The notes beneath the pieces are model-generated. The model saw only the letters and a list, made by a program, of their open reading frames with translations, made no database searches and was not told the origin of the DNA. Below are positions 48,738-57,173 of a stretch of DNA of 57,294 nt, one piece after another. Both the position numbers and the translations under genes were made by a program. Origin of the DNA: an uncultured Bacteroidales bacterium (lineage in GTDB: Bacteria > Bacteroidota > Bacteroidia > Bacteroidales > Bacteroidaceae); the NCBI GenBank assembly GCA_902766625.1, contig CACXEH010000048.1, positions 1 to 57,294 on the forward strand, written 5' to 3'. Each line of letters starts with the position of its first letter. The first letter of the stretch is position 1.

Positions 48738-49856
48738 CTACTTTTTTATTGCTTTACCACGCTCATAAGTACCTTTGCTGATGACCGAGCCATTGCGATC
48801 TTTTTCCACGTAATCGCCATGACGGACACCTTCTTTATAAGAGCCTTCGAAACGATTGCCGTCTTTGTCCTCCTCGATACATTTGCCGTCTTTAAGGCCA
48901 TTCTTGAAAGAGCCTTTGAACTTCAAGCCTGATGCCAAGCGCAGGATACCTTCGCCGTTCATCTTGCCCTGCGACCACTGACCGTCGTAGATATCACCGT
49001 TGGACCAAGTGTATATGCCCTTGCCATCGCGCTGGTTGTCTTTCCAGTTGCCGACATATTTGGAACCGTTTTTCCAGATATAAGTCCCTTCTCCGTTCTG
49101 TTCACCGTTGACAAAATTGCCGATATATTTATTACCGTTGCTGAAGGTAAAGATACCTTTGCCCTTCCGCACACCAGCAACATAAGGACCTTCATATACA
49201 TTACCGTTCTTGAAGCGATAAATACCTTTGCCTTGTTGCATGTCATTTACCCAGTCACCTTCATAGACATCGCCTTCGACATAGCTAAACACACCATTGC
49301 CGTTGCGTTGGTTATTCACCCAGTCACCCACATACTTGGAACCGTCAGCCCACACAAAAGTACCTTTGCCTTCTTTCTTGTCGTCTTTCCAGTTGCCAAT
49401 ATAGTAAGCGCCATTGGCATAAGTGTATGTACCTTTACCCATGCGCTTGTCTTGATACCAGCCACCTACATACTTGTCACCATTATAATAATACATCGTG
49501 CCTTGGCCATGCTGGTAATCACGAAACCACAGACCTTCATAGCGGTTATTGTTCATGAAATAATAGGTACCACGGCCGTGTTGCTGGTCCTGAAACCACT
49601 CGCCTTCATATTTCTCTCCGTCGGTAAAAGCATATACACCATGTCCTTGACGCTTGCCCTTGACGTATTCGCCTTCATAGGTGTCGCCTGTTTTGAAAAC
49701 AGTGCGCCCTTTTCCATGGGGCTTTCCACCCGACAGAGTTCCGGTATACACAGAACCATCCTTAAATGTATATGTCCCGATGTTTATCTTCTGCGCGTAC
49801 ATCACGCAAAAGGACATCATGACAGCAAGGTAAATTATAATCAGTTTCTTAGTCAT
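48738..49856 (-). CDS. Exported MORN-repeat protein
   Basis: 372 residues from the ATG at 49856, which has a good ribosome site (TTTGGAGAAG) and starts a signal peptide (MTKKLIIIYLAVMM...CVMYAQ). The upstream in-frame ATG at 49889 would overlap kdsB and gives a worse signal. The rest is about 13-14 MORN units of 23 residues each, of the form G-x-x-Y-x-G-x-W-x-x-G-x-x-x-G-x-G-x-Y/F-x-x. MORN proteins form elongated beta-sheets that bind membranes or act as scaffolds. The protein is probably periplasmic or surface-bound. Its neighbours kdsB (13 bp upstream) and glgB (7 bp downstream) suggest a place in envelope or glycan work, but no partner can be named. Confidence 0.85.
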   Translation of the reverse strand: MTKKLIIIYLAVMMSFCVMYAQKINIGTYTFKDGSVYTGTLSGGKPHGKGRTVFKTGDTYEGEYVKGKRQGHGVYAFTDGEKYEGEWFQDQQHGRGTYYFMNNNRYEGLWFRDYQHGQGTMYYYNGDKYVGGWYQDKRMGKGTYTYANGAYYIGNWKDDKKEGKGTFVWADGSKYVGDWVNNQRNGNGVFSYVEGDVYEGDWVNDMQQGKGIYRFKNGNVYEGPYVAGVRKGKGIFTFSNGNKYIGNFVNGEQNGEGTYIWKNGSKYVGNWKDNQRDGKGIYTWSNGDIYDGQWSQGKMNGEGILRLASGLKFKGSFKNGLKDGKCIEEDKDGNRFEGSYKEGVRHGDYVEKDRNGSVISKGTYERGKAIKK

Positions 49857-49869
49857 CTTCTCCAAACAT

Positions 49870-50643
49870 TTAACAGTGCTCCTCACCATGAGTCTTCAGG
49901 AATATTTCCGCCTTGTGCAAGTCTTCCGGCGTATCTATACCTATCGTCTCTTGTCGTGTCTGCTGAACTTTTATCTTATATCCGTTCTCCAACCAGCGTA
50001 ACTGTTCCAGAGATTCAGCCAGTTCCAATTCAGACTGCGGCAGCTTGGTTATTTCTTTCAGAACATCAACTTTGTACGCATATAAACCGATATGCTTATA
50101 AAACACATGCTGACTACTCCATACCGACTGCTCCCTGCCACGGATGAATGGAATCACCGAACGGCTGAAATACATAGCAAAACCTTTCTTGTCCACAACC
50201 ACTTTGGGCGAATTGGGGTTCTCTATCAAAGCAAAATCTGTATCAGGTGTAAACGGCATCACCAAAGTCGCAATCTGGGTATCCGCATCATCGAAGCACG
50301 TTTTTACAGCTTCCAACTGTGATGCCTGGATGAATGGTTCATCTCCCTGTACATTAACGACGACATCATATCTCGCACCGCATTTCTGATAAGCCTCCCA
50401 ACAGCGGTCTGTGCCGCTTTTATGGTTTGGGCTCGTCATTATGGCCTTACCGCCAAACGATTGGACGAGACGCATTATCTCTTCGTTGTCAGTAGCAACC
50501 ACAGTCTCGTCAAAACAAGGTCTTACCCGCTCATAGACTCGCTGGATTATGGGTTTGCCACACAACAACGCCAAAGGTTTCGCCGGGAAGCGTGTTGAAG
50601 CGTATCGCGCAGGGATAATAGCTATATAACGTTTATTTGACAT
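49870..50643 (-). CDS. kdsB: CMP-KDO synthetase
   Basis: 257 residues. KdsB activates KDO with CTP to make CMP-KDO for lipid A core assembly in the cytoplasm. The N-terminal IIPARYASTRFPAKPLA motif binds CTP, VATDN and TSPNHKSGTDRCWEA follow, and VVNVQGDEPF carries the metal Asp. YKHIGLYAYK and ESLEQLRWLENGYKI complete the family pattern. It lies 12 bp after the PBP1A gene and 13 bp before the MORN gene. Confidence 0.97.
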   Translation of the reverse strand: MSNKRYIAIIPARYASTRFPAKPLALLCGKPIIQRVYERVRPCFDETVVATDNEEIMRLVQSFGGKAIMTSPNHKSGTDRCWEAYQKCGARYDVVVNVQGDEPFIQASQLEAVKTCFDDADTQIATLVMPFTPDTDFALIENPNSPKVVVDKKGFAMYFSRSVIPFIRGREQSVWSSQHVFYKHIGLYAYKVDVLKEITKLPQSELELAESLEQLRWLENGYKIKVQQTRQETIGIDTPEDLHKAEIFLKTHGEEHC

Positions 50644-54964: not shown

Positions 54965-55807
54965 CTATCTCTTTATGGCTTTTTGTCCGTCATGAATATA
55001 GACGTCACCGTGTTGAATATCTGACTCCTCAACTTTCACGCCCTGGAGATTATAAAAATCTGCGTCTGACGGTTTCGGAACATACACCTTGGACGATATA
55101 CCGGTCATCGTGGCATATTCAGCCTTGGCTTTCTCCAATTGTGCCATAAACGCGTCATTGGCATGCAGACGAGCTATCGTGGTCATTCCTACGACACGGC
55201 CACACTCGACATCGCTTTCGTAATCATAGCCTGCAATCACGCGGCTCTCGCCAAACTGATACCCGCGGGAGAGGATAGTATCCTGCCTATCAATATTGAT
55301 TTCAGCCAGTACAAGCGCCACAGCCCATCCTACAGCGGCATATTCAGAGACATACGAACTGGACGTTTTAGCCGCAGCCTCATTCGCAGGAATCAAAGAA
55401 AAGTCCTTAAACTGGTCAAAAGGGCGTTTGCGCTTATATTTGGCCTTAACAGTTGCAGTAGCCTGCACAACGTCTTGGCGAAGCGTATTTATCAATTTGA
55501 AGATTTGCGGAGATTTGACATTAGATAATGTCATGCCAAACGCCGGAGTAAACACCTTACACAGCACCATAGCACCAAGAGAGGCATCTGTAATAGCCTC
55601 ATTGGCACGCAGACCCGTACGGTAGTTTTTGCCCCATTGATACATCACCCAGTCTGATACAAAACGCTGACCTGTGGTGTCAGGGGGTGGCGGAAGGAAC
55701 TTCTCTGCTGCCGGAAAATCAGAAGGCGTTAGATAACCTTCGGCCTTCATCTCTGTGGAAAGAAGAGCCGATAAAACAATTGCCAATAAAATAATGTATC
55801 TTTTCAT
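54965..55807 (-). CDS. PAP2-fold protein, degenerate paralogue of the neighbouring acid phosphatase
   Basis: 280 residues with a signal peptide (MKRYIILLAIVLSALLSTEMKA). It aligns without gaps to the 55822-56604 product over residues 1-205, but key residues of the class A acid phosphatase site are changed. The P-S-G-H block (153-156) reads V-S-E-Y, replacing His156 by Tyr, and G-x-H-x-x-SD (193-199) reads G-Y-D-Y-E-SD, replacing His195 by Asp. Lys121, Arg128-Pro129 and Arg189 remain. The phosphatase chemistry is therefore probably lost while the fold and secretion signal are kept. The C-terminal 35 residues (FYNLQGVKV, DVYIHDGQKAIKR) form a short type IX-like module that the paralogue lacks. 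It follows the paralogue by 14 bp. Confidence 0.82.
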   Translation of the reverse strand: MKRYIILLAIVLSALLSTEMKAEGYLTPSDFPAAEKFLPPPPDTTGQRFVSDWVMYQWGKNYRTGLRANEAITDASLGAMVLCKVFTPAFGMTLSNVKSPQIFKLINTLRQDVVQATATVKAKYKRKRPFDQFKDFSLIPANEAAAKTSSSYVSEYAAVGWAVALVLAEINIDRQDTILSRGYQFGESRVIAGYDYESDVECGRVVGMTTIARLHANDAFMAQLEKAKAEYATMTGISSKVYVPKPSDADFYNLQGVKVEESDIQHGDVYIHDGQKAIKR

Positions 55808-55821
55808 AATTGCAATCCTCC

Positions 55822-56604
55822 TTATTCATTATTTGTTTGTGAGGCATTTGATGACTGTAGTGCCTCATCTTCCTCTCTCAATAATCCTTTTGCAGAAGCG
55901 GATTTGGCCGCAAACTCATCCTTAGCCTTCTTCAGCTGCTTCATAAAATCAGGATCGGCATGAAGACGGGCTACAGCTGCGGATGCAACGCAACGACCTG
56001 CGCAGACATCGCTCAGCCAATGAAATCCGCCGATAGCACGGCTCTGACCATACTGATAGCCCCTTGACAAGATGGTATCCTGACGCGCAGGATTAATTTC
56101 CGCCAATATCAGCGTCAGAGTCCAACTCTGAGCCGTATGACCTGACGGATATGAACCATTTGTGCGCAGACTTTCTTCGGATGAAGGAACAGACGTACTT
56201 TCTTCAAATTTCATAAACGGACGCGTCTTCATATAAAAGTTTTTCACGCTCTTGGCAGCATTATTTCCGTCTACCCTTGCTTTGCTCAACAAAGCATACA
56301 ACTCCGGTGTGTTGGTACTGGAAATGGTCATACCAAAGGCAGGAGAGAAGGTGCTGCAAAAATAATTGATTGACGTACTGGCATCTGAGACAACCTGTTT
56401 GCCACGTGGTGTAGGACGTATACTCTTGCCCCAGTTATATGCCACCCAGTCTCCAAAAAAACGGCCTCCCGTATACTCCGGAGGCGTCGGCAAATACTTT
56501 TCACCTGCTGGCATGTCAGCCACAGTCAGAAAAGAATCTGCCTTGATACAAACGATTGGTAATACAAAGAAAACAAATAATGTAAAAAATTTATTCATAA
56601 GCAT
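55822..56604 (-). CDS. Exported class A acid phosphatase (PAP2 family)
   Basis: 260 residues with a signal peptide ending near residue 22. The three PAP2 motifs are intact: Lys121-x6-Arg128-Pro129, SYPSGHTAQSW with His156, and SRAIGGFHWLSDV with Arg189, His195 and Asp199. It hydrolyses phosphate monoesters outside the cytoplasm, by a phospho-His intermediate at His195. It is the first gene of a two-gene unit with its degenerate paralogue and has its own promoter at 56637-56666. The C-terminal 40 residues are charged and probably disordered. The alternative ATG at codon 3 cannot be excluded. Confidence 0.9.
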   Translation of the reverse strand: MLMNKFFTLFVFFVLPIVCIKADSFLTVADMPAGEKYLPTPPEYTGGRFFGDWVAYNWGKSIRPTPRGKQVVSDASTSINYFCSTFSPAFGMTISSTNTPELYALLSKARVDGNNAAKSVKNFYMKTRPFMKFEESTSVPSSEESLRTNGSYPSGHTAQSWTLTLILAEINPARQDTILSRGYQYGQSRAIGGFHWLSDVCAGRCVASAAVARLHADPDFMKQLKKAKDEFAAKSASAKGLLREEDEALQSSNASQTNNE

Positions 56605-56705: not shown

Positions 56706-57173
56706 CTATTTTTCTGACGGCGTAAACGATTCGTACGTTCCATCATCATAAAAAATCCTGATTTCCTTTACACATCTTTTAATAATAGTAGGAGAATCAG
56801 CGCGCGGAAGCTCACCCGTACCGCCGTTTTTGGCTCCGTCATTATGAACCTCACGAGAAAAGAGATTTAATGACTGGGAAGGATTTTCTTCGTGTCCAAA
56901 TAAAGAGTTTGACGACTCAGGAACTTCGGTCGTTTCTTGACGTTCATTTTGATGCGCATCGTTATACATTTCACCCTCCCCAAATAAAAGCCAATTAATG
57001 CTGATATTAGGGAAAGCTTTATGAACAGCAAGAGTATGATTATTTGTGGGGCGTGTGCGCTCATTCAAAATACCCGACAAAGAACCAGGTGTAATACCTA
57101 AAACTTTAGCAAACTCTTGCTGTGACATTTTGACCGAATCCATCAACAATTTTATCCTGTCTTTAACATCCAT
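56706..57173 (-). CDS. XRE-family transcription regulator
   Basis: 155 residues. The N-terminal helix-turn-helix (about 5-62) has MSQQEFAKVLGITPGSLSGILNERTRP, where helices 2 and 3 are about 17-25 and 28-37. A middle region of low complexity rich in N, E, S and G is followed by a conserved-looking end, IIKRCVKEIRIFYDDGTYESF. The form is typical of Bacteroidales XRE regulators without a ligand domain. The promoter (57213-57242) overlaps an inverted repeat CAAAG-N6-CTTTG, which could be an autoregulatory site. It is separate from the PAP2 unit, which has its own promoter. Confidence 0.85.
   Translation of the reverse strand: MDVKDRIKLLMDSVKMSQQEFAKVLGITPGSLSGILNERTRPTNNHTLAVHKAFPNISINWLLFGEGEMYNDAHQNERQETTEVPESSNSLFGHEENPSQSLNLFSREVHNDGAKNGGTGELPRADSPTIIKRCVKEIRIFYDDGTYESFTPSEK

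Follow-up and report, generated by a model that had tools for sequence, protein, structure and literature searches.

A tandem pair of class A acid phosphatase-type proteins

The stretch of DNA analysed here (the window) comprises 57,294 nucleotides of a contig from an uncultured, gut-type Bacteroidales bacterium and carries two neighbouring phosphatase genes on its minus strand. The first, P1 (positions 55822-56604), encodes an exported class A acid phosphatase of 260 residues with canonical motifs KX6RP, PSGH and SRX5HX3D and without a C-terminal secretion tail. The second, P2 (54965-55807), starts 14 bp past the P1 stop on the same strand. It encodes 280 residues with an apparent class A acid phosphatase fold and a degenerate active site. 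Judged by eye, a Sec-type signal peptide covers approximately residues 1-22 of P2 (55742-55807, minus). Directly upstream of P1 lies a gene for a Cro/CI-type (XRE) regulator (56706-57173, minus), whose orthologues occupy the same place in two related genomes, G013 and G014; it may be a candidate controller of the pair. Elsewhere in the window, an exported-looking protein of MORN-like repeats (GxYxGxW..., again recognised by eye) is encoded at 48738-49889 on the minus strand.

The two phosphatases are clearly related to each other. In a BLASTP alignment 102 of 232 positions are identical (44%, E 2e-75), and the only gap, two columns wide, falls into the signal peptide, so that the gapless alignment over about 200 residues described in the first-pass annotation holds outside this region. 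P1 carries the full class A signature KX6RP-X-PSGH-X-SRX5HX3D as printed in PMC12356135. When compared with the PhoC model NF045654 (NCBIfam), P1 scores 208.6 bits (E 1.1e-61) and P2 175 bits (E 1.4e-51), both under the equivalog cut-off of 430; a match of this strength means that the resemblance of P2 to the PhoC family is not due to chance. For PF01569, with a cut-off of 27.2, the scores are 49.4 bits for P1 and 27.8 bits for P2, the latter barely over the threshold.

The closest solved structures to P2 by sequence are PhoC/PhoN-type acid phosphatases, and structure prediction leads to the same family. The AlphaFold2 model of P2, built from nine sequences, has a mean pLDDT of 75.8, with 191 of 280 residues at 70 or above. 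It superimposes on the Escherichia blattae acid phosphatase 1eoi_A with a Z-score of 28.1 and 2.2 Å over 206 aligned residues, while its best Foldseek match is 1iw8 (E 7e-15). The known class A nonspecific acid phosphatases (PhoC, PhoN, E. blattae 1d2t/1eoi, M2-32 9htz) match the fold at Z 26-28, with about 40% identity to 1eoi, and in its model P2 keeps their all-helical architecture. P1 shares the full signature with these enzymes, whereas P2 differs from them in lacking signature residues of PSGH and SRX5HX3D and in carrying a type IX-like tail.

Distribution of the pair

How widespread is this arrangement? P1 and P2 are adjacent and on the same strand in five of the 19 genomes of the genus (this genome, G000, as well as G005, G012, G013 and G014), with intergenic gaps in the other four of 22, 29, 34 and 68 bp if the most likely starts are used. 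A P2 match at E 1e-20 is found in nine of the 19. The own genome contains three other matches to P2, P1 included; in G009 the C-terminal part of a P2, located where a contig ends, adjoins glyA, a gene that also lies near P2 in G000, G012, G013 and G014 and is absent from the G005 stretch. In G010 there is a P1-like gene and no P2 was found, so P1 can do without P2. A different arrangement is seen in G012, where three class A phosphatase genes stand in a row (L095:5049-7565, plus), the third being of the P2 type.

Beyond the genus, a P2 profile was searched against 399 genomes of the family, where it scores 476-527 bits only in the five genomes with the pair and never exceeds 317 in the others. 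At E 1e-60 or better there are matches in at least 84 of the 399 family genomes and in at least 14 of 393 genomes of the order, both counts being lower bounds with at most six candidates scored per genome. Of the listed matches, those examined had long frames or covered the profile almost in full, and a few others were added.

Loss of catalytic residues in P2

In the P1/P2 alignment, residues 153-156 of P2 read VSEY instead of PSGH (55340-55351, minus) and residue 195 is Asp instead of the catalytic His (55223-55225, minus). The substitutions P153V, G155E, H156Y and H195D had been numbered and named correctly beforehand, and K121, R128 and R189 are indeed retained, together with S154 and D199. 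What these changes mean can be gauged from the class A enzyme M2-32, for which replacing the equivalents of H156, R189, H195, D199 or S154 with Ala cost more than 99% of the activity in each case (PMC12356135). The equivalence between P2 and M2-32 is based on the common motifs PSGH and SRX5HX3D. Since two of the five residues essential in M2-32 are gone, P2 is very probably inactive as a phosphatase.

The first-pass annotation proposed to look for the same substitutions in related genomes. While the pair does recur, the substitutions are not constant. This genome has Arg at position 128, VSEY at 153-156 and Asp at 195; G013 and G014 both show Arg, VSEH and Asn, G012 has Pro, ASDY and Ser along with K121Q, and G005 has Pro, ASAH and His. 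H156Y is thus missing from the two closest orthologues (VSEH). The G005 copy has all five mutagenesis-essential residues intact despite R128P, P153A and G155A and, going by its residues, may be partly active. In the G009 fragment R189 is changed to Pro and the nucleophile H195 is retained; D199 is kept in this fragment and in all five full copies. The canonical state itself is very stable: among 83 single-domain rows, some of which are one gene reached via two loci, KRP-Y-PSGH-SR-H-D is the reading in 71; of the rest, six belong to P2, five deviate at a single residue and the last is incomplete.

The retained residues raise the question whether P2 has remained an enzyme, be it through altered chemistry or through weak phosphatase activity. 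Both histidines in G005 and the ubiquitous D199 would agree with this, and Asp or Ser could in principle serve as a nucleophile. However, the five full copies have D, N, N, S or H at position 195, of which Asn is implausible as a nucleophile, H156 is Tyr in two of them, and no alternative catalytic residue common to all P2 was noticed. We therefore regard continued catalysis by P2 as improbable.

Decay or constraint?

A gene that loses its active site could simply be on its way out. P2 would then be a functionless duplicate, whose frame is open only because decay set in recently. Two observations are in line with this: active-site residues vary by species, and P2 evolves faster than P1, with a lower core identity in 10 of 10 species pairs. 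The P2 frames, however, are intact in five species at protein identities of 42-74% and near-saturated synonymous change, and signal, fold and tail have been retained along with the glyA neighbourhood that five genomes have in common. Among the three closest species pN is 0.17-0.21 and pS 0.75-0.78; as synonymous sites are saturated, no dN/dS ratio is given for P2 pairs.

The position of the changes is also informative. We compared sites that are at least 95% conserved in canonical enzymes by a single Fisher test over sites with five related P2 sequences: P2 is changed at 6 of 11 catalytic-motif sites versus 3 of 25 others (p 0.012), where the motif columns are invariant in the canonical rows by construction, because these rows were picked for the full motif, and some rows are one gene via two loci. 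P1 is changed at none of the 11 motif sites and at one of the 25 others. The concentration is seen at a conservation threshold of 99% (p 0.027) and is not significant at 90% (6/11 versus 14/42, p 0.3).

It had been argued beforehand that random variation of the changed residues would mark P2 as decaying. Variation between species is what we find, but intact frames, a pN far below pS and losses at motif sites fit a loss of the catalytic constraint alone, with the rest kept. Catalysis looks like the constraint that was lost, and the remainder of P2 still appears constrained. Decay, disfavoured by the open frames, the low pN relative to pS, the kept neighbourhood and the site-wise losses, is in our view very improbable. 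Judged from sequence, P2 is a pseudoenzyme in the sense of a conserved and selected protein without essential catalytic residues, the G005 copy being the exception.

A putative type IX secretion signal

The C-terminal 45 residues of P2 (236-280; 54968-55102, minus) are likely a short type IX C-terminal signal, with a tail profile match at 54968-55066. They comprise a putative cleavage site at T235/G236-I237, a motif B (Y252NLQG256 plus K258), a motif D-like GDVYI and, as motif E, Lys and a basic end. Short signals of this kind have been described for Prevotella intermedia, where they occur in 48 of 80 predicted type IX cargo proteins and the cleavage site was determined for five of the short ones (PMC11969387). 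There, the preferred site is PT/GI, motif B consists of Tyr, Gly and a basic residue, motif D is GxY followed by Ile, and motif E is basic (PMC11969387).

The P2 tail resembles these signals in its C-terminal position, the Tyr/Gly/basic motif B, the Tyr-Ile of motif D, the basic motif E and the T/GI site; motifs B and E are the clear ones. It departs from them in three respects: motif D in this genome's P2 is GxxY and not GxY, a variant that recurs among the other tails encoded here; about 14 residues (238-251) separate motif B from the cleavage-like site, as compared with 6-11 in P. intermedia (PMC11969387); and the bearer is a putative pseudoenzyme. No match of P2 to the long type A signal models TIGR04183 or PF18962 was found (Pfam, NCBIfam, E ≤1), nor is there a type IX model among the NCBIfam matches (E 0.1) of seven other tail-bearing proteins from this genome.

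The tail is present on all five full P2 copies and the G009 fragment and on none of the five paired P1. Its profile has 24 matches in this genome at E 0.001. Within a sample of 18 of the 31 other tail-profile places, the match ends at most five residues from the stop in 17 stretches, and the remaining one runs off the contig. This genome also encodes the type IX components SprA (2599.3 bits), PorU (1005.6) and PorV (417.6), each over its cut-off. SprA and tail were tallied separately with the same settings in 199 family genomes that are at least 90% complete, taken as the same set: 127 have both, 63 neither, eight SprA only and one the tail only. The tail thus tracks SprA in 190 of 199 genomes with nine discordant, a figure that relatedness inflates. 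A contrast exists even within one genus, g9, where G148 has SprA and the tail, and G026, G053 and G074 have neither. Another genus, g3, includes five genomes (G133, G146, G172, G280 and G319) with SprA and without a short-tail match at E 0.001, which may use only other signal types.

Motif anatomy, C-terminal placement, co-occurrence with SprA and the presence of SprA, PorU and PorV all speak for the type IX-like module that the first-pass annotation recognised on P2. Its assumption that P2 gained the module fares less well: intact single-domain phosphatases in other genera bear similar tails, so the tail of P2 may be ancestral. From these features we consider P2 a candidate type IX cargo that would be targeted to the surface.

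A tail on P2 and none on P1 would also suit the main rival to a joint function, in which P2 acts independently of P1 as a surface binder of phosphate-bearing ligands through K121, R128 and R189. Phosphorylated sugars, nucleotides, and teichoic or lipid phosphates would be candidate ligands. These three residues and S154 are retained in this genome, G013 and G014. The pocket is not constant, however: R128P in G012 and G005, K121Q in G012 and R189P in the G009 fragment speak against a conserved phosphate site, and in four of the five full P2 the change of Gly155 to Glu or Asp places a negatively charged side chain in the phosphate loop. Moreover, P1 and P2 are adjacent in all five genomes with a full P2. 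A lone binder therefore appears doubtful, if still a serious contender.

Fused double-domain relatives

Canonical and degenerate class A domains also meet in a second form. In other Bacteroidales two such domains are found in one chain (L082, L086, L091, L099, L101-L133, L136 and L137), with second halves that are often degenerate (for example, GRP/PSTH/SRND, PSAE/SGHD or LSVT/SRND). The halves were counted as distinct domain sequences, many of them from closely related genomes. All 38 first halves keep the equivalents of S154, H156, R189, H195 and D199, while at least one of these residues is missing from 19 of 39 second halves, of which 15 lack the nucleophile His and four both H156 and R189. 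A further 18 second halves keep the five with the PSGH glycine changed, and two keep PSGH or VSGH. Left out of these counts are G401, with two canonical halves on a separate branch, and G090, whose first half reads QRP/PASQ/SS and whose second has an intact PSGH with GR replacing SR. The G090 protein (L076:734-2233, plus) shows the reversed order, a degenerate first half followed by a near-canonical second one, and ends in a type IX-like tail.

Across 38 proteins, first halves share a mean pairwise identity of 0.64 and second halves one of 0.52; the changes in second halves are not concentrated at motif sites (8/11 versus 14/25, p 0.47, at the 95% threshold). Like P1 and P2, the fused proteins combine a canonical with an often degenerate domain. 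Unlike the pair, they are one polypeptide, mostly without a type IX-like tail, which means that inactivity and tail are not generally linked.

Do both forms go back to the same event? In the tree, first halves (100/100), second halves (100/99) and P2 (99/97) each form a group, and P1 and P2 group together (96/79, not starred; 95 in another tree). This grouping and the changed essential residues support the earlier suggestion of a duplication followed by loss of catalysis. That P2 and the second halves of the fused proteins have a common origin was considered as well and is not favoured by the tree; forcing the two together is not rejected by the AU test (p 0.244; 80 of 164 rows used). The fused double domains are thus probably, not certainly, of separate origin from P1-P2, and the pairing of active and inactive class A domains likely arose at least twice in Bacteroidales.

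How might the pair work?

A very probably dead P2 with a likely surface signal suggests a binding or anchoring partner and not an enzyme. Since both copies are retained side by side, the simplest explanation is that they work together and that P2 targets or anchors. The alternatives raised in the first-pass annotation, a new binding role for P2 or a subunit pair of P1 and P2, are candidate functions inferred from the sequences. We propose that the pair goes back to the duplication of a class A acid phosphatase gene within this Prevotella-like genus. P1 would have remained a working phosphatase, while P2 would have lost its chemistry and kept its fold, its Sec-type signal and, in this genome, K121, R128 and R189 of the phosphate pocket. 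Both proteins would be exported to the periplasm by Sec. Since class A enzymes are homodimers with a shared homodimeric core (PMC12356135), P2 could pair with P1 there; passage through SprA, of the pair or of P2 by itself, would then be directed by the P2 tail, after which PorU would cut off the tail and anchor P2 on the surface. We tentatively favour this role of P2 as a non-catalytic targeting or anchoring subunit of a surface phosphatase partnered with P1, and would put its chances slightly short of even.

The dimeric nature of class A enzymes (PMC12356135) could equally be invoked for a regulatory function, with P2 as an inhibitor or decoy: it would associate with P1 in the periplasm and adjust the activity of P1, and the tail would remove surplus P2. 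The recurrence of a degenerate partner as a fused half would fit such a function. Nothing points to inhibition, though, and a tail would be a strange means to this end, which makes regulation quite improbable.

The targeting role can be taken one step further. P2 could be an export escort that oligomerises with the live P1, which has no tail, and whose own signal takes P1 along through the type IX system. An ancestral surface enzyme would then have been split into a catalytic and a targeting subunit, with the active/inactive pairing arising at least twice in Bacteroidales. This more daring version as a whole seems unlikely to us. It has parallels in folded complexes that move on the signal of one subunit, namely Tat-exported hydrogenase and peroxisomal import (PMC9251779). 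The likeness to such hitchhiker or piggyback transport lies in one subunit bearing the signal of the complex (PMC9251779); the difference is that the P1-P2 case is only proposed, and for the type IX system. Among the matches listed from the open-licence literature (titles and abstract openings), none reports that a tail-less partner is exported together with a type IX cargo. The same literature, covered more broadly by title, yielded nothing on PAP2 pseudophosphatases, on tandem, inactive or duplicated PAP2, or on Prevotella tandem phosphatase pseudoenzymes.

The class A family itself is known; what appears new, as far as sequences can tell, is a conserved pseudophosphatase that likely carries a type IX signal and is paired with an active-type paralogue. 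If the proposal is true, P2 would represent a bacterial pseudoenzyme whose job can be recognised, and the pair would offer a test of whether a signal-less partner can be exported by the type IX system. The fused relatives provide a second, one-chain version for studying why a dead half is kept. Some proteins with class A domains extend further: a D-Ala-D-Ala dipeptidase domain (PF01427, Pfam) lies C-terminal to the class A domain or domains at L101:167-2362 (minus) and L135:1535-2959 (plus), and the C-terminal sequences of L103, L106, L112, L114 and L133 indicate the same domain.
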